Assembly: GCA_007123655.1 (NCBI GenBank)
Contig: SKKR01000439.1
Coordinates: 1 to 5,375, forward strand
Length of the DNA: 5,375 nt
DNA from: Thermomicrobiaceae bacterium
GTDB lineage: Bacteria; Chloroflexota; Chloroflexia; Thermomicrobiales; Thermomicrobiaceae
Reading direction: 5' to 3'
Part shown: in pieces, positions 1 to 5,375 of the stretch
Layout: each line of letters starts with the position of its first letter
Position numbering within the stretch: position 1 is the first letter of the stretch
Program-made: the position numbers and the translations under genes
Notes under the pieces: generated by a model
What the model was told of the DNA's origin: nothing
The model's database searches: none
Seen by the model: only the letters and a program-made list of their open reading frames with translations

Positions 1-1
1 C

Positions 2-139
2 GCCGTCGGCCGCTGCAGTGATTGCCTGATGTCCGTTGACGGCATACTAAATGTACGAACATGTGTGACGACCGTTCGGGACGGCATGCGTATCGAAACG
101 CAACACGGCCTCGGCCACTGGGAGGACATGCACTCATGA
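2..139 (+). CDS. C-terminal end of a [2Fe-2S] ferredoxin-like subunit (HcnA / gamma-subunit type), 5' truncated
   Basis: Reading from base 2 gives 45 codons to a TGA at 137-139. The peptide begins AVGRCSDCLMSVDG and continues with VRTCVTTVRDGMRIETQ. This is the second half of a plant-type [2Fe-2S] domain: the Cys-x2-Cys pair (codons at 14-16 and 23-25) and the last cluster Cys (62-64) are present, while the first Cys would lie before the window. The VTxVRDGMRIETQxGLG ending is characteristic, from memory, of the small electron-transfer subunit of hydrogen cyanide synthase (HcnA), D-hydroxyproline dehydrogenase gamma and octopine oxidase-like complexes. It would pass electrons between FAD subunits or to an acceptor. 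The stop overlaps the next start (ATGA at 136-139), which implies translational coupling with the FAD subunit. The exact substrate cannot be told from this fragment. Confidence 0.88.
   Translation, partial: AVGRCSDCLMSVDGILNVRTCVTTVRDGMRIETQHGLGHWEDMHS
121..126 (+). promoter_or_regulatory. Ribosome binding site that fixes the start of the FAD subunit
   Basis: GGAGGA lies 9 bases before the ATG at 136, at normal spacing. It lies inside the last codons of the ferredoxin gene. It supports 136, not the in-frame ATG at 61, as the oxidoreductase start; the sequence from 61 to 135 is already used as ferredoxin codons in another frame. Confidence 0.75.
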
Positions 140-1092
140 GCCAGGTCGATGTTGCCGTGATTGGCGCCGGACCGGCGGGCATCGCGGCCGCGCTCGCCGC
201 GGCGGACGCCGGTGCGAACACCCTGCTGGTTGACGAGGGCACCCGCGCCGGGGGTCACCTGCGGTGGAGGATATCGCTCACACTGGAGAACGACCCCGGT
301 TTCGGGCTCTCGCCGGCAGTGGGGCCCGAGTTTGCCGATCAACTCGTCGAGCGCATCCAGGCCCGTGGCAACCTGGAGCTCCGGCTCGAAACCGTCGCCT
401 GGGGACTGTTCGATGACAACCTGCTTGGGTTATCCAGCGCCAACGGAGCGAAAGAGATAACGGCGGGCGCGATCGTGATCGCCACCGGGTCCACCGACCT
501 TGTCGCGCCGTTTCCGGGCTGGACGCTCCCCGGCGTGATGACTGCGCGAGCAGCCCAGATCTTCATACATGTCCACCGCGTGCTGCCGGGACGTGCCTGG
601 GCCATACTGGGCGATTCACACGAAGCGGACGAACTGCAGCGGGATCTCGAGCTCGCCGGTGCAACCGTCGTCGTCAGGGCGAACGATCCGGAGACGTTGC
701 GGGCATCCGGGACAAACCGGCTTGCCCATGCCGAGGTCGGTGACGACGTCTATGAGCTCGATGCACTCGCGATCGCACTCGGACGGCAACCGGACGCCGA
801 ACTGGCGCTGCAGGCGATGGCTGAGGCCACCTTCTCGGAGTCGCTGGGCGGGTTCACCACGATGCGGGACCAGGATTGCGAAACGTCCGCGCCGGACGTG
901 TTTATCGCTGGCGACGCCGCGGGGATCGGCTCGCTCGCAGAGATTGTTGCCGAGGGGAGACTGGCCGGGCTCGCCGCAGCCGGAGCCGATGCCGCCAAAC
1001 TTGCCGATGCCAGGGCGGAGCGGGATGCGGCCATGTCCAATGCCCGCGCCGCCGCTCTCGAGGAACTTCATCTGAGACCGGCGGGCGCATAG
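136..1092 (+). CDS. FAD/NAD(P)-dependent oxidoreductase, alpha subunit of an HcnB / amine dehydrogenase-like complex
   Basis: A 318-residue flavoprotein. The N-terminal dinucleotide fold is clear: VAVIGAGPAG at residues 6-15, an acidic end of strand two (D33/E34) and a GGHLRW stretch after it. The ATG motif of this superfamily is at 116-118 (IATGS), and the C-terminal FAD motif PDVFIAGDAAGIGSLAEIVAEG surrounds G259-D260. These features match the alpha subunits of hydrogen cyanide synthase (HcnB), D-hydroxyproline dehydrogenase and octopine/nopaline oxidases. Those proteins are usually about 450 residues because they carry a C-terminal BFD-type [2Fe-2S] domain; here that domain is absent and encoded by the next gene. 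The second nucleotide-binding region (ILGDSHEAD, 157-165) lacks the normal GxGxxA/G pattern, so NAD(P) binding there is doubtful. The start is set by the GGAGGA site and the ATGA overlap. Flavoprotein class is sure; the substrate (an amino acid, imino acid or opine) is inferred. Confidence 0.87.
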   Translation: MSQVDVAVIGAGPAGIAAALAAADAGANTLLVDEGTRAGGHLRWRISLTLENDPGFGLSPAVGPEFADQLVERIQARGNLELRLETVAWGLFDDNLLGLSSANGAKEITAGAIVIATGSTDLVAPFPGWTLPGVMTARAAQIFIHVHRVLPGRAWAILGDSHEADELQRDLELAGATVVVRANDPETLRASGTNRLAHAEVGDDVYELDALAIALGRQPDAELALQAMAEATFSESLGGFTTMRDQDCETSAPDVFIAGDAAGIGSLAEIVAEGRLAGLAAAGADAAKLADARAERDAAMSNARAAALEELHLRPAGA

Positions 1093-1113
1093 ATGGTTGA
1101 TCAACCTGTCTCG

Positions 1114-1119
1114 AAGGGA
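1114..1119 (+). promoter_or_regulatory. Ribosome binding site favouring the internal start of the BFD-type protein
   Basis: AAGGGA lies 9 bases before the ATG at 1129. The other in-frame ATG at 1093, directly after the previous stop, has only a weak GGCGGG in front of it. The choice adds or removes 12 residues that lie outside the conserved domain. Confidence 0.5.
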
Positions 1120-1128
1120 CTTGATGAC

Positions 1129-1434
1129 ATGTCCAAATCGGATCAACTCCGGGATTACGTCTGCCGGTGTGAGGAGATTCCCCGGTCGGCAATCCGGGAA
1201 GCGATCGCCGAGGGCAATCACACGCTGAACGACATCAAGCGCCGAACACGCGCGGGCATGGGCGTTTGCCAGGGAATCTACTGCCTGCGCACGGTCGCCG
1301 AGATGATACGGTCCGAGACCGGCGTCCATCCTTCAACACTTGCGCCAATGACCGCCAGGCCACCGGCCAGGCTGATCTCGCTCGGCAGCCTGGCGAATAT
1401 CGATCCTGGTTCGGATGAGCATGACGGCGCCTGA
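1129..1434 (+). CDS. Free-standing BFD-type [2Fe-2S] protein (detached C-terminal domain of an HcnB/SoxA-like subunit)
   Basis: A 101-residue protein from the start chosen here, or 113 residues if the ATG at 1093 is used. It contains Cys12-x-Cys14 (YVCRCEEI) and Cys47-x4-Cys52 (GMGVCQGIYC), spaced as in the bacterioferritin-associated-ferredoxin-like fold, with the supporting KRRTRAGMG segment before the second pair. In HcnB, sarcosine oxidase alpha and opine oxidase A proteins this domain is fused to the end of the FAD subunit. Even the following proline-rich tail (RPPARLISLGSLA, about residues 80-92) resembles the C-terminus of those fusions. Its cluster probably relays electrons from the FAD subunit encoded just before it. 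It follows that gene by 0 or 36 bases and ends inside the start of manA, so the genes are likely cotranscribed. The domain call is firm; its place in a dehydrogenase complex is inferred from the neighbours. Confidence 0.85.
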   Translation: MSKSDQLRDYVCRCEEIPRSAIREAIAEGNHTLNDIKRRTRAGMGVCQGIYCLRTVAEMIRSETGVHPSTLAPMTARPPARLISLGSLANIDPGSDEHDGA

Positions 1435-2497
1435 CGGGCCGATCCTCCTGGAACCACGATACGACTCGAAGATCTGGGGTGGTCGACGGCTGGAGACGGT
1501 CCTGCAGAAGTCCCTCCCGGGTCGGGGGCGTTTCGGCGAATCGCTGGAGAGCGCCGCCGATTCCCGGCTCGTCAGCGGGCCATGGCGCGGAAAGATGCTC
1601 CTCGAACTTGTTACGACCTACCCCCACGAAGTACTCGGTTCGCTCGGCTACCGGGCGAGCGGTACGTTCCATGACCTTCCACTCCTGGCGAAATTCATCG
1701 ACGCCACCGACGACCTGTCCGTCCAGGTGCACCCCGATGACGATGCCGCCGAAACTATGGACAGGCGTGGGAAAACCGAGGCCTGGTATGTGATCTCGGC
1801 CGACCCGGATTCCCGCCTGATCACCGGCCTGGTGCCGGGCGTCACGGTTGACGACGTCCGTCGTGCCATCAGCGAAACGAGGCTCGGTGACCTCCTGATC
1901 GAACGGCCTGTGCACGCCGGCGACACGCTGCTGATACCGGCCGGTACCGCGCACGCGATCGGTAAGGGAGTGCTCCTCTACGAGATTCAGCAGGCGAGTG
2001 ACGTTACCTATCGAATGTACGACTGGGGACGGGTCGACGAGCACGGGAACCCGCGTGACCTTCACATAGACGCTTCCCTGTCAGTTCTGAAGCCTGAACT
2101 GGATGCCAGGCTGATCACGCCGCTGGAACGTTACCCCGGGCGCGAGGTGCTCGCGGCATCTCGCTACTTCGCGCTCGAACGGTGGCGTGTCCCGAACCTC
2201 GGAGCGACTGTTGATTTGCCGGTCGGTTCGTTCCTGCTGCTCAGCACGGTCGATGGCTCGGTCAGCCTCGACGGGTCCGGCGAGGCATTGCGACTCGGGA
2301 CCGGCCAGACTGCGCTTGTCCCCGCAACGCTGGAATCGCTTCGTGTAACTGGAGAGGGAATCGTGCTCGCAAGCTACGTCCCGGACCTGATGCAAGACAT
2401 CATCCTTCCGCTGCGACGCCAGGGGCACGCGGACGCGGCGATATCGGCGCTCGACGGAGCGCTGGACGACATTCAGGCGTTATTCGACGCCCGTTGA
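1415..2497 (+). CDS. manA: Type I mannose-6-phosphate isomerase (phosphomannose isomerase)
   Basis: Interconverts fructose 6-phosphate and mannose 6-phosphate in the cytoplasm, linking glycolysis to GDP-mannose synthesis or mannose use. The 360-residue protein shows the family pattern in order: KIWGGRRL near residues 19-26, LSVQVHPDD with zinc ligands Gln104 and His106, GKTEAWYVI with Glu122, PAGTAHAIGKG with His180, and the EIQQASDVTYRMYDWGR block with the likely catalytic Arg200. A second cupin-like half fills the C-terminus (about 240-340). It belongs to the short bacterial cupin-type ManA group, and is somewhat longer than the roughly 310-320 residues usual for Bacillus-type members. The start overlaps the BFD gene by 20 bases; a second ATG six bases later (1421) is equally possible, and no strong ribosome binding site precedes either, so reinitiation after the upstream gene is likely. 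Its coupling to an oxidoreductase operon has no obvious metabolic reason. Confidence 0.93.
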   Translation: MSMTAPDGPILLEPRYDSKIWGGRRLETVLQKSLPGRGRFGESLESAADSRLVSGPWRGKMLLELVTTYPHEVLGSLGYRASGTFHDLPLLAKFIDATDDLSVQVHPDDDAAETMDRRGKTEAWYVISADPDSRLITGLVPGVTVDDVRRAISETRLGDLLIERPVHAGDTLLIPAGTAHAIGKGVLLYEIQQASDVTYRMYDWGRVDEHGNPRDLHIDASLSVLKPELDARLITPLERYPGREVLAASRYFALERWRVPNLGATVDLPVGSFLLLSTVDGSVSLDGSGEALRLGTGQTALVPATLESLRVTGEGIVLASYVPDLMQDIILPLRRQGHADAAISALDGALDDIQALFDAR

Positions 2498-2562
2498 ATT
2501 CCCGGGCACCGCACACTGGCGCAAAACCGAGAGCAGATCCTACCCCTCCGGGTGTGTTCCCC

Positions 2563-2581
2563 TATACCCCACAGGGGTACA
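2563..2581. promoter_or_regulatory. Candidate CsoR-family operator (copper-type repressor site)
   Basis: A perfect inverted repeat TACCCC-ACA-GGGGTA occupies 2565-2579, with one more matching pair outside it (T2563 with A2581). C-tract/G-tract palindromes edged by TA are the known operator form of the CsoR family, which includes the Cu(I) sensor CsoR and the persulfide sensor CstR. The site ends 27 bases before the GTG start of the His-rich gene, a suitable place to block RNA polymerase. No clear -35/-10 pair was found; TACAGT at 2578-2583 is a poor -10 candidate overlapping the site. No csoR gene is in the window, so the regulator would act from elsewhere. The repeat is directly visible; the identity of the binding protein is inferred. 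Confidence 0.7.
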
Positions 2582-2595
2582 GTCATGGTGTGGTG

Positions 2596-2604
2596 AAAGG
2601 AGGT
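2596..2604 (+). promoter_or_regulatory. Near-perfect ribosome binding site for the GTG-started His-rich protein
   Basis: AAAGGAGGT is a full anti-16S match and lies 4 bases before the GTG at 2609. It fixes this start and predicts strong translation, the strongest such signal in the window. Confidence 0.85.
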
Positions 2605-2608
2605 CGAC

Positions 2609-2989
2609 GTGCCACGCACCATACTCGCACCCATCGGATTCGCCGCGCTTGTCGTTGCGATCATTGCCGGCGCAATGTTCGGGGGCAACATGATCCCGGG
2701 GTCACACGCGATGCCGCTCGTTGATTCAATCAGTCAGATGCACGGCGGCTGGCATCACGACGGCGACCATCAGGGGACGCACCATCATGGCGGTGGTCAC
2801 CGTATGGACCACACAGGTGGTGGTACGTGCACTTACAGCGACGACGTCGAAGGGTCTCGCTGTCCGGAACGTCAACACGGGAGCATGCACAACGTCGGGT
2901 CAGCAGGTTGCCCGTTCGGGGCCGGTTCGACAACAATGATGAGCGGGCAGGACTGCTCCCGGTTGCACCACTCAACTCGATCTGAATAG
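2609..2989 (+). CDS. Small exported or membrane-anchored His/Met/Cys-rich protein, probable metal binder
   Basis: A 126-residue protein that I do not recognise as a named family. It starts at GTG behind an excellent ribosome binding site. Residues 5-25 are a hydrophobic segment acting as signal peptide or anchor; SHA at 32-34 would suit signal peptidase cleavage. The rest is low in hydrophobics and rich in metal ligands: about 14 His (clusters at 45-50, 54-60, 64-68, 90-94 and 120-121), about 9 Met, and four Cys at 74, 85, 101 and 116. Several ligands sit side by side (QMH, RMDH, SMH), as in copper- and nickel-binding tails. The gene lies directly under a CsoR-type operator and 15 bases before a membrane-anchored propeller gene, so an extracytoplasmic role in copper binding or buffering is a reasonable inference. 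Nickel, zinc or silver binding is possible. That it is a real gene is well supported by its leader; the function is not shown by homology. Confidence 0.75.
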   Translation: MPRTILAPIGFAALVVAIIAGAMFGGNMIPGSHAMPLVDSISQMHGGWHHDGDHQGTHHHGGGHRMDHTGGGTCTYSDDVEGSRCPERQHGSMHNVGSAGCPFGAGSTTMMSGQDCSRLHHSTRSE

Positions 2990-3004
2990 GGAAAGCGAAC
3001 CCGG

Positions 3005-4000
3005 ATGTCAAATCAGCCACGCCGACAGGGTCGCAGGGCAGGCATCAGTCAACAGAAACGGATCTGGAACAGCGGAAGCGTTCGTCTCGCGATCGCAGGG
3101 GCAGTTGCGATCCTGATCGTCACCGGCGTATGGATCATTGTCTCCGAGCGAGGCGCGACTGCTGATTTCGAACCGGTTTCCTCGATCGAATACGAGCACA
3201 GCCCGAATCACCTGCACGGGATCGGATACGACCCGGACACGGACAGACTCTACCTTGCGACTCACTTCGGATTGTTCGCAATGGAAGATGATCAGCTTCA
3301 CCAGGTTGGCGATGAACGTTCAGACCTGATGGGGTTCTCTATGAACCCGAGGGACCGCTCGGAGATCTTCGTCAGCGGGCACCCCCAGGGAGGGGGTAAT
3401 CTCGGCCTGCTCCGCTCGACTGACGAAGGTGTCACGTTCGAGCAGATTTTCACCGGCGTGGAAGACGAGACCGTCGATTTCCACGGAATGTCGATCAGCG
3501 GTGCCGATCCCGATCGGATCTACGGCGCGTTCATGGGATACCTCTATCGAAGTCAGGACAGCGGTCAGACGTTCACCCGGTTCCAGCCCGCGGGACTCGC
3601 TGACGCCGGGCTCTGCTGGGGCGTCCCCTGCCTGGCCGCAGATAGCGACGACCCGGACCGGGTGTACGCTGGAATGCCGGAAGGGGTCATGGTCTCGACG
3701 GACGGTGGCGAAACCTGGGATACCCTGACCACCGACCTGGGACAGGTCGCCGCTATGAAAGTCGACTCGAACAATTCCAGCCGAATCGTGGCGTACACGG
3801 AAGCGATGGGGCTTGCGATTTCGCCCGACGCCGGGGAAACCTGGGCGAGTCATCACGGAGATCTGCCGGTTGGCGAAGGCGGATACGTGTTTGCGATCGC
3901 GCTGGACCCTGACGATGATCAGCGGATCTTCGTCGCCACGATGAACAATGACGTGTTCGAAACCCGGAACGGGGGCGAAACCTGGACTCGCGTCATATGA
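3005..4000 (+). CDS. Membrane-anchored Asp-box (BNR/sortilin-like) beta-propeller, F510_1955-type family
   Basis: A 331-residue protein with a basic N-terminus (RR/KR residues 6-19), one membrane segment at about 28-46 and a long extracytoplasmic domain, so type II topology is expected. Five Asp-box motifs (S/T-x-D/N-x-G-x-T-W/F) are seen at 138-145, 183-190, 231-238, 273-280 and 320-327, each at a propeller blade turn. The opening NHLHGIGYDPDTDRLYLATH and the later GHPQGGGNLG block resemble, from memory, the group annotated in databases as F510_1955 family glycosylhydrolase, related to sortilin/exo-sialidase-like propellers. Asp boxes are structural, and no sialidase active-site arginine triad is apparent, so enzymatic activity is doubtful; binding or scaffolding is as likely. 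A CWGVPC pair (Cys204, Cys209) could form a disulfide outside the cell or hold metal. The start follows AGGGAAAG at 2988-2995 and lies 15 bases after the His-rich gene, which indicates an operon under the same operator. Confidence 0.83.
   Translation: MSNQPRRQGRRAGISQQKRIWNSGSVRLAIAGAVAILIVTGVWIIVSERGATADFEPVSSIEYEHSPNHLHGIGYDPDTDRLYLATHFGLFAMEDDQLHQVGDERSDLMGFSMNPRDRSEIFVSGHPQGGGNLGLLRSTDEGVTFEQIFTGVEDETVDFHGMSISGADPDRIYGAFMGYLYRSQDSGQTFTRFQPAGLADAGLCWGVPCLAADSDDPDRVYAGMPEGVMVSTDGGETWDTLTTDLGQVAAMKVDSNNSSRIVAYTEAMGLAISPDAGETWASHHGDLPVGEGGYVFAIALDPDDDQRIFVATMNNDVFETRNGGETWTRVI
3381..3397. repeat. Intragenic inverted repeat ACCCCC-AGGGA-GGGGGT
   Basis: A perfect 6-base stem with a 5-base loop inside the propeller gene. 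It codes for the HPQGGG part of a motif that appears conserved in this family, so protein coding may fully explain it. It resembles the CsoR-type half-sites upstream but has a 5-base instead of a 3-base centre and lacks the TA edges. Confidence 0.3.
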
Positions 4001-4025
4001 GCCATCCGGCCGATCGCCGCGTGCC

Positions 4026-4484
4026 CTATTTTCGCAACTGCTCGTAGGTCCAGCCGAGCACTGCCCCGTACACCACGTGCCGGAACACCTCCTGCAAGAA
4101 GGGAACGGGCCGATTGAACCGCGGGAGCGTGCCGCGTCTGATATCCGGGTGAACGCGATCGAGGACCAGGATAATCGGCCAGAGAATCATGTTCTCCACG
4201 AGTCCAAACACGGTGCCCTTGAGCCATCCGGGACCCGGGAATCGATGCTCAACGTGCGCGTAGGCGACGCCGAGCGCAGCTCCGTTCACGGTGTGCATCG
4301 AGGTCCCCAGCACGGGCCAGAGCCGGCTTCCACCAGGGATCATGCCGGAGAGCAGGCGCAAATCGTTTGTTCGTTGCCGCGTAAGTGCAATGTCCAGCGC
4401 CATCGCGATCAGAAACGCGACCCCGGCAACCGTGCCGGCCACCAGCCCGGCCGCGGAACGGTGGGTTGATTCGTTGCGTCGCAT
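4026..4484 (-). CDS. Small multi-pass membrane protein of unknown function
   Basis: A 152-residue protein with three clear hydrophobic segments at about 11-34, 55-78 and 87-108 and a weaker one at about 133-147. The first carries a G13-x3-G17-x3-G21 run typical of close helix packing. Polar residues sit within or beside the membrane parts (D31, H64, N67, E97, N98, D109, H112, H136), and G-A-x-L-G-x-x-Y occurs twice (68-75 and 140-147), hinting at an internal repeat. I do not recognise the family and assign no function. Its ATG shares one base with the nadE stop (TGATG), with GGAG just upstream inside nadE, so translation is coupled to nadE. It ends 25 bases from the convergent propeller gene, and no clear terminator lies between them. 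Coding status is well supported by the coupling and the hydrophobicity pattern. Confidence 0.78.
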   Translation of the reverse strand: MRRNESTHRSAAGLVAGTVAGVAFLIAMALDIALTRQRTNDLRLLSGMIPGGSRLWPVLGTSMHTVNGAALGVAYAHVEHRFPGPGWLKGTVFGLVENMILWPIILVLDRVHPDIRRGTLPRFNRPVPFLQEVFRHVVYGAVLGWTYEQLRK

Positions 4485-5239
4485 CAGGCCATCTCCAGCA
4501 TGGAAACCGGCTTGCTCAGCGTGAACACCGGGGGCAATGCTCGCTTGTGTGCCGAACGGCTGATCATCTGCTCCACCCTGCGAACGGTCTCATGGTCGAA
4601 CCCGCTCGTGTCTCCCCGTTCCAGCCCGTCGATGATGCCGTCAAGTTCCTCATAGGTGAGGCCCATCTCTTCCTCGTCCGTCTGTCCCGCCCAGAGACCC
4701 GCGCTCGGCGGACGCTGGATGATCCGATCGGGGATGCCCAGCGCCCTGGCAAGGTCGCGAACCTGATGTTTGTACAGCGACCCGAGCGGCAGAAGATCCA
4801 CCCCGCCGTCTCCGTACTTCGTGAAATAGCCAACCAGCAGTTCAGATTTGTTACCGGTCCCGACAACCATCAGGTTGTTCGTGTTGGCGATGTGGTAGAG
4901 CGTAATCATCCGGAGTCTCGGTTTGATATTCGCCACAGCGAGATCGGTGCCGGACGGGAGTGTCTCGATCATCGTCTGAAACGCACTGCTCAGTTCGATC
5001 TCGAGCGCGTCGATTCCGACGGACCTGGCAACGAGGCGCGCGTCTTCGAGATCCTCTGTCTGGGAATTCGCCGGCATGATGACCGGCGTGACACGTTCGG
5101 GCCCGAGCGCGCGTGCTGCCAGTGCAACGACCACCGCAGAATCAATCCCTCCAGAGAGACCCACGGCAACACCGTCGGCACGAGCGTCGCTCACACGCTC
5201 ACGCAGCCATTCCGAGATCGCGTCAGCCAGTGTCGCCAT
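4484..5239 (-). CDS. nadE: NH3-dependent NAD+ synthetase
   Basis: Catalyses the last step of NAD+ synthesis, ATP-dependent amidation of nicotinic acid adenine dinucleotide, in the cytoplasm. The 251-residue protein is a complete short-form enzyme without a glutaminase domain, so free ammonia is the expected nitrogen donor. Visible motifs in order: the ATP-pyrophosphatase loop LSGGIDSA (28-35), the NIKPRLRM segment (104-111), GTGNKSE (127-133), KYGDGGVDLLPLGSLYK (141-157) and PSAGLWAGQTDEEEMGLTYEELD (178-200), which closes over the substrate. The start is preceded by AAGGAA (plus-strand 5246-5251) six bases upstream; an ATG 16 bases further upstream is out of frame. It is the first gene of a two-gene unit with the membrane protein that follows. 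Confidence 0.96.
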   Translation of the reverse strand: MATLADAISEWLRERVSDARADGVAVGLSGGIDSAVVVALAARALGPERVTPVIMPANSQTEDLEDARLVARSVGIDALEIELSSAFQTMIETLPSGTDLAVANIKPRLRMITLYHIANTNNLMVVGTGNKSELLVGYFTKYGDGGVDLLPLGSLYKHQVRDLARALGIPDRIIQRPPSAGLWAGQTDEEEMGLTYEELDGIIDGLERGDTSGFDHETVRRVEQMISRSAHKRALPPVFTLSKPVSMLEMA

Positions 5240-5299
5240 TGACAGTTCCTTCCATAGGTGCGCGGTCGGGCGATGTTCGCCATTTGCGATGTTCTGATC

Positions 5300-5305
5300 A
5301 TTCTA
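5300..5305 (-). promoter_or_regulatory. Weak candidate -10 element for nadE
   Basis: On the minus strand TAGAAT (5 of 6 to TATAAT) lies about 60 bases before the nadE start. The hexamer at normal distance upstream is a poor -35. A better -35-like CTGACA (plus 5330-5335) is 24 bases away, too far for a standard sigma-70 pair. The surrounding 136 bases (5240-5375) hold no ORF or RNA gene that I can see. Confidence 0.25.
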
Positions 5306-5358
5306 GCGTATCCGGTCTCCGGTCCGGCCTGTCAGTTCGCTCAGGGGACGCCAGTAAC

Positions 5359-5375
5359 GTTCCCTTAATCGGAAC
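5359..5375. repeat. Short inverted repeat at the window edge
   Basis: GTTCC-CTTAATC-GGAAC is a 5-base stem with a 7-base AT-rich centre, cut by the window end so that the full arm length is unknown. It could be part of an operator or terminator of the neighbouring region, or chance. Confidence 0.25.

Follow-up and report, generated by a model that had tools for sequence, protein, structure and literature searches.

We describe here a two-gene unit on a 5,375-nucleotide stretch of DNA, hereafter the window, from a Thermomicrobiaceae bacterium of the Chloroflexota (assembly GCA_007123655.1, contig SKKR01000439.1, positions 1 to 5,375). A palindrome of the kind bound by the copper-responsive repressor CsoR stands ahead of a gene for a small, exported-looking protein rich in His, Met and Cys (the His-rich protein), which is followed by a gene for a predicted membrane-anchored β-propeller of the F510_1955 family. 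We consider it likely that these genes form a unit behind a CsoR operator and that their products bind or hold copper outside the cytoplasmic membrane. A broader proposal is that F510_1955 propellers are an unrecognized copper family, six-bladed and anchored outside the membrane, spread from bacteria to archaea and onto plasmids, that carries a His4-Met-Asp2 copper face and is misnamed as glycosidases, and that in this genus it has come under CsoR control along with an exported, His/Met-rich partner that evolves fast and supplies it with copper; here we find the case evenly balanced.

A candidate CsoR operator and its regulator

The palindrome, TACCCCACAGGGGTA, lies at 2565-2579 with 0 mismatches, just where a preliminary description of the window had placed it ahead of the His-rich gene. 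When the window was shuffled, matches with up to two mismatches arose at a mean of 0.09 per window, and the two observed were reached in 2 of 200 shuffles. The published consensus for the CsoR of Streptomyces lividans, ATATACCCCTNAGGGGTATAT, has the core TAC-N9-GTA and two G/C tracts (PMC3902906). The window palindrome carries exactly this core and is likewise a pseudopalindrome with two G/C tracts.

A profile search of the window's own genome (G000; 2.93 Mb, 70.6% complete) found one CsoR-family protein (E 4.8e-28), and TACCCGTAGGGGGTA stands 35 bp 5′ of its start codon; a csoR elsewhere in the genome with a matching site at its own promoter, proposed earlier as a check, is therefore present. 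This csoR precedes a gene for a 1024-residue copper ATPase that carries two HMA domains and, C-terminal to its ATPase part, a cupredoxin domain (L039:3421-6495, contig C428), so that the earlier remark on the absence of classic copper genes holds for the window and fails for the genome. Among solved chains, the best matches of the regulator are the copper CsoRs 4m1p and 4adz, which we take to be those of Geobacillus thermodenitrificans and S. lividans. Its C-H-C residues and RLRR align with both, the Cys-His-Cys residues being the ligands of Cu-type CsoRs. The protein thereby combines C-H-C with the RLXR motif described for the CsoR family (PMC3902906), and falls with the copper CsoRs as opposed to CstR, RcnR, InrS or FrmR. 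Identification of the palindrome as a CsoR-type operator is thus strongly supported, as it fits all sequence tests made; CsoR would be expected to bind it and to be released by Cu(I).

Distribution of the site across the genus

We compared five genomes of the genus, all incomplete (G000 and its relatives G001 to G004). The exact pattern TACCCN5GGGTA occurs at 24 sites in these genomes, against 5 for the reversed pattern, and 15 of the 24 stand at csoR, at copZ-like or copB-like genes, or at the propeller module. Four precede csoR, one in each of the four genomes in which csoR was found (it was not found in G002, which is incomplete); the check for copA downstream of csoR covered G000. Another four precede a CopZ-like HMA protein of ~70 residues, five lie at the locus of a CopB-like ATPase with a His-rich N-terminus, and two precede the module's His-rich gene (G000 and G001). 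Both CopZ-like proteins tested exceed the Pfam HMA cut-off, and both CopB-like ATPases tested exceed that of the NCBIfam copper-translocating ATPase model. The copB-like site of G000 was assigned from synteny, with a divergent polysaccharide deacetylase gene as marker, the ATPase itself lying off the contig. This recurrence across the genus of one site form at csoR, copZ-like and copB-like genes, with one csoR found in the window's genome, bears out the earlier attribution of the operator to the CsoR family. The other 9 sites lie away from recognizable metal genes. At three of these (G003 C451, G002 C418 and G004 C108) TACCC-N5-GGGTA is extended to GGCTACCC...GGGTAGCC with GC-rich flanks, and looks more like a hairpin than an operator.

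Two perfect sites of G000 outside the window were recorded. On contig C79, a gene for a small Met/Trp-rich membrane protein (GGWMMGPGHMWGW; L037:3-260), for which no Pfam match was found, stands behind a perfect site in the slot that the copB-like ATPase occupies in relatives. On contig C51, a perfect palindrome (L036:3840) sits between TTGACA and TATTTA hexamers, ~200 bases or less from the start of an open reading frame (ORF) that runs off the contig and, by reading of its sequence, resembles histidine/aromatic ammonia-lyases; copper genes were not seen there.

The His-rich protein and its counterparts

The first gene of the unit encodes 126 residues, of which 14 are His, 9 Met and 4 Cys (21%); a short basic end followed by a hydrophobic stretch leads us to predict export. 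Of the seven gene starts compared, its own has the longest match to the Shine-Dalgarno core (AAGGAGGT), at 8 bases where the others have 3-5, and 15 bases separate its stop codon from the ATG of the propeller gene. The preliminary description had drawn attention to each of these points, namely the strongest ribosome site, an exported protein full of His, Met and Cys, and a membrane-anchored Asp-box propeller 15 bases on, and its account stands, the protein being exported-looking. The two genes are presumably co-transcribed.

The His-rich protein has no Pfam or NCBIfam match, and among 5.8 billion proteins it retrieved only itself; elsewhere in the genus its best match was unconvincing (E 0.08). 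Counterparts were recognized by position and composition. In G001 the site, a His/Met-rich ORF (L040:3586-3990, minus strand; 22% His, Met and Cys, with an export-like N-terminus) and the propeller gene occur together, and its His-rich protein can be aligned with that of G000 over the N-terminus (M-RTIL, then AM...DS). G003 (L041) retains the 3′ part of a His/Met/Cys-rich ORF (29%) with the propeller gene, the 5′ end and promoter lying beyond the contig. The His-rich gene is present in three of the five genomes.

The propeller family and its conserved face

The second gene product belongs to NCBIfam NF045728, "F510_1955 family glycosylhydrolase", scoring 182.9 bits against a cut-off of 175. 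It features BNR/Asp-box repeats, with PF02012 and PF15902 above cut-off and PF14870 (Ycf48) just below (26.3 against 27). Its AlphaFold2 model (pLDDT 91.7) comprises a helix at residues 23-53 and then, by strand count, six four-stranded blades, in agreement with the earlier description of an anchored propeller. The Asp-box repeats are shared with Sortilin/Vps10 and Ycf48 proteins, a likeness of repeat type only; the sortilin propeller has ten blades and that of Ycf48 seven, against six in the model. The nearest folds were GH74, Ycf48, sortilin, Pizza6, NHL and YWTD propellers, and six-bladed folds ranked first in a second structure search; such a list informs fold, not function. No solved chain named F510_1955 family occurs among the 60 best structure matches, and the absence of nitrous oxide reductase (NosZ) and galactose oxidase from the matches listed excludes nothing. 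The system had at first not been recognized as described: the propeller does fall in a named NCBI family, for which no known function was found, and no paper on the function of the family was found in the open-licence library searched. PDB 9m58, the entry of a Deinococcus Cu/Zn superoxide dismutase, was also among the best propeller matches (chain residues 191-462); another copper enzyme thus seems to bear such a propeller.

Nine columns of the family alignment are fully invariant in 69/69 sequences: H71, H87, D107, M109, G125, H126, G134, D158 and H160. The set comprises 58 genome-scan loci, 16 plasmid loci and the window (75), minus six in which the gene is cut at an edge (L085, L101, L113) or has fewer than 250 residues (L114, L117, L118). 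The seven His, Met and Asp residues (four His, one Met, two Asp) are borne out by an alignment of 42 sequences retrieved with phmmer. For the genome scan a wide alignment (A2) proved too diverse and a closer one (A3) worked; conservation of D158, H160, M162, H69 and H71 is biased in the A3 set because the scan patterns VDFH[SGA]M and NH[LI]HG cover them. In the plasmid set, which was found by tblastn, H71, H87, D107, M109, H126, D158 and H160 are each conserved in 16/16, H69 in 15/16 and M162 in 7/16. Other Asp-box proteins of the genus genomes, among the matches listed, match the family profile only from ~position 56, past H71, H87, D107 and M109.

By the topology of the model, H71, D107, M109, D158 and H160 are found at the opening strand of blades 1, 2 and 3 or immediately ahead of it; H87 and H126 are where the second strand ends in blades 1 and 2. 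All the invariant His, Met and Asp residues thus occupy DA loops, BC loops or the starts of A strands in blades 1-3. These loop and strand positions would place the seven residues on one face, with the Asp-box turns, which join the third strand to the fourth, on the other, and this one-face set is likely a metal site. Together with the gene context, the conserved residues suggest that the metal is copper.

Genomic neighborhoods of the propeller family

Beyond the genus, a tblastn search of plasmids matched 108 records; of the 40 listed, most are annotated as F510_1955 family. Sixteen of these 40 loci were inspected, picked for taxon spread, and 14 of the 16 feature annotated copper or heavy-metal genes within 6 kb. 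Neighbors include DUF305 proteins, copper/heavy-metal ATPases, HMA proteins, four-helix copper proteins, CopC/CopD, multicopper oxidase, PCuAC, SCO and CusA/CzcA; L049 has a cupredoxin only. The two exceptions are L047, with a metal-responsive regulator only, and L058, with none. In 6 of the 16, the gene ahead of the propeller, or the next but one, encodes a DUF305 protein (L046, L051, L057) or, in L047, L048 and L059, a small exported-looking protein rich in Met. A His/Met-rich, exported-looking partner is thus a recurring theme, even if the partners differ.

For the loci of the genome scan, we assembled a copper panel from genes beside the family on plasmids and genes of the window's genus. 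Of the 54 genome loci that lie outside the genus (548 kb in all), 36 gave a tblastn match to the panel; of the 32 control regions (359 kb), one did (CusA). With P-type ATPases, Cus and DUF4396 removed, 30 case loci matched and 0 control regions. Set segments of contigs C2-C4 in 17 of these genomes served as controls; some were short, and 32 of the 40 requested existed. The 54 case loci are not independent, because 13 are from Devosia and 5 from Aurantimonas/Aurantimonadaceae. In two loci the family occurs with a CsoR-type site. In L074 (4556-8837, from a 0.8 Mb genome) the order is CsoR site, csoR, one unassigned gene, a 65-codon gene, the F510_1955 gene and a copB-like ATPase gene; the last two overlap by 4 bases, as in an operon-like run. 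In L055, on a Citricoccus plasmid, the HMA-copA genes and the propeller gene are divergent, with an exact site in the DNA between them.

Proposed function and its alternatives

In the function that we propose, a rise of Cu(I) in the cytoplasm would cause CsoR to leave its operators, and copper ATPases would pump copper out. On the outer side, the exported His/Met-rich protein would take up copper as a sponge or shuttle and might pass it to the propeller or share it; the propeller would act as an anchored binding or redox station. Copper would in this way be kept from re-entering or damaging the envelope.

Several observations weigh against this proposal. No sigma-70-like promoter was found at the operator site, and the CsoR and CopZ-like proteins of the genus fall below the NCBIfam RicR and CopZ cut-offs (for CopZ, the one protein tested). 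Base composition predicts ~3.4 exact TACCCN5GGGTA per 2.93 Mb where 5 were seen, so that the site count is weak evidence and the placement of the sites carries the argument. In G002 and G004 the propeller occupies the same place behind a palindrome broken at the aligned position and without a His-rich ORF, their TACCC-N4-GGATA aligning with the window's possible, degenerate second site (2541..2554). The exact site is kept in one of three relatives with a readable promoter. The co-occurrence of site and both genes that had been suggested as a check is thus complete in G001, holds for both genes in G003 and fails in G002 and G004. These two are sister genomes with 95% identical propellers, so this contrast counts as a single evolutionary event, in which the site and the His-rich gene appear to have been gained or lost jointly, once. 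Moreover, the His-rich proteins are alike in composition, position and N-terminus, but their sequence similarity is non-significant. The two-gene unit thus appears real, yet not fixed in the genus. Beyond it, a site (exact or with one mismatch, spacer 4-6) was found in the upstream DNA at hand (≤1.5 kb) in 2 of 67 loci scanned, L055 and L074, so CsoR control is not a trait of the F510_1955 family; and only 2 of 11 archaeal loci match the copper panel.

A different function for the propeller would be that of a copper-dependent or redox enzyme, its copper face catalytic as in NosZ and its electrons drawn from cytochrome c or a cupredoxin. Natural fusions of the family with a cupredoxin (P0083; PF00127) and with cytochrome c (P0104; PF00034/PF13442) are known from one relative each, and genes for cytochrome c, SCO, Dsb or CcdA adjoin several family members. 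In NosZ, seven His bind CuZ at the hub of a propeller with seven blades, and a cupredoxin domain is present (PMC11573801); the two propellers share His at a hub or face and a cupredoxin partner, which is fused in one F510_1955 relative, but differ in that F510_1955 would use six blades and four invariant His, a Met and two Asp. No sign of homology between NosZ and the F510_1955 propeller was found. The window's propeller has no fused redox domain, and its neighbors (manA, nadE and a DUF6789 gene) suggest no substrate or reaction, and we regard an enzyme as rather unlikely. The NCBIfam name would instead have the propeller be a glycosidase or carbohydrate protein that occurs in copper islands for some other reason, and GH74 xyloglucanases do come first by both Foldseek and sequence profile. 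GH74 enzymes, however, comprise two tandem propellers with the active site in the cleft between them, and the GH74 chains among the matches listed have ~690-790 residues, more than twice the propeller's length; the window's protein is one six-bladed domain of ~275 residues. The family invariants are His, Met and Asp on one face, more than an Asp pair, and the neighbors are copper genes; F510_1955 itself is given as a gene of unknown function in Anoxybacillus (PMC3948429). Gene context and conserved residues both indicate copper; the glycosidase name seems mistaken, and a carbohydrate role seems to us highly improbable.

Doubts of another kind concern the site and the small ORF. CsoR/RcnR-family operators resemble one another in form (PMC3902906), so the site might serve a CstR- or RcnR-like member that responds to persulfide, nickel or another signal, and persulfide had been named beside copper in the preliminary description. 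At most one family member was found per genome, all of these being incomplete; that regulator has C-H-C and RLXR and aligns best to copper CsoRs, and the other genes behind the same site encode copper ATPases and copper-chaperone-like proteins. With Cu-type residues in the regulator, persulfide control is not borne out, and a signal other than copper is scarcely to be expected. Alternatively, the palindrome may be real and the His-rich ORF dispensable or spurious, the propeller being the sole functional product and its copper regulation incidental in this strain. The failure of the protein to retrieve a homolog other than itself and the missing ORF in G002 and G004 speak for this. An ORF of like composition in the same slot of G001, with an export-like N-terminus, and of G003, where it is cut, speaks against it, as does the best ribosome site of the seven compared; G+C by codon position (0.63/0.54/0.67) is only weakly informative. 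We judge a spurious ORF improbable, and retain the unit of operator, His-rich gene and propeller gene as the likely reading.

Relation to known copper systems

The module resembles described CsoR regulons, such as S. lividans copZA and Staphylococcus aureus copAZ/copBmco/copXL, in operator form, in regulator type and in the copper ATPase and copper-chaperone-like genes that stand behind the same site in the genus; it differs by adding a His/Met/Cys-rich exported-looking protein and a propeller, which the excerpts of the published accounts do not name. The nearest described case that we found is S. aureus CopL of copXL, a lipoprotein under CsoR control for which binding of copper outside the cell has been proposed (PMC10233261). 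The module would likewise place under CsoR control an envelope protein that holds copper outside; compared by description, CopL is a lipoprotein encoded with an ATPase, whereas the module pairs a His-rich protein with a propeller and includes no ATPase. In the RicR regulon of Mycobacterium tuberculosis (mymT, lpqS, socAB and mmcO; PMC10961391), a CsoR homolog likewise controls small metal-binding and envelope proteins from several promoters, and no propeller is named in the excerpt.

The CsoR regulon is thus known, and what appears new is an apparently copper-linked, unstudied propeller family within it. The more general result is the apparent copper link of F510_1955 propellers in several phyla. 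This is a widely annotated family named after an enzyme activity for which we found no support. If the link is true, it would add an envelope component to many copper-resistance islands, and the propeller, if it has a copper site, would be a parallel to NosZ that differs in ligands and in number of blades. With one operator, two genes and one repressor, the regulon of this genus offers a direct test ground.

Organization of the locus

The features of the unit are collected in Table 1. It is flanked by manA (1415-2497) on one side and, on the other, by a DUF6789 gene and nadE on the opposite strand (Pfam and NCBIfam assignments). Judged from ORF positions and sequence, gene order around the pair is kept in G001 to G004 as far as the contigs extend.

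Table 1. Features of the candidate copper-responsive unit in the window
Feature	Position	Strand	Basis
Candidate CsoR-type (type 2) operator, TACCCC-ACA-GGGGTA, fitting TAC-N9-GTA	2565..2579		Sequence match
Possible second, degenerate site (weak), TACCC-N4-GGGTG, just 5′ of the main palindrome	2541..2554		Read from sequence
Ribosome binding site AAGGAGGT	2597..2604	+	Sequence match
Small exported-looking His/Met/Cys-rich protein, 126 residues, GTG start	2609..2989	+	ORF, composition, counterparts in G001 and G003
Predicted membrane-anchored six-bladed propeller, 331 residues, NCBIfam NF045728 (F510_1955 family)	3005..4000	+	Profile score, AlphaFold2 model
Predicted membrane helix near the propeller's N-terminus (residues 23-53), preceded by a basic end	3071..3163	+	AlphaFold2; orientation predicted by the positive-inside rule
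Candidate metal face, blades 1-3: H71, H87, D107, M109, H126, D158, H160	3215..3484	+	Invariance 69/69; strand topology

Elsewhere in the window (61-1434), a gene for an FAD oxidoreductase lies beside one for a BFD-type [2Fe-2S] protein, and the two products resemble parts of the sarcosine oxidase alpha chain.

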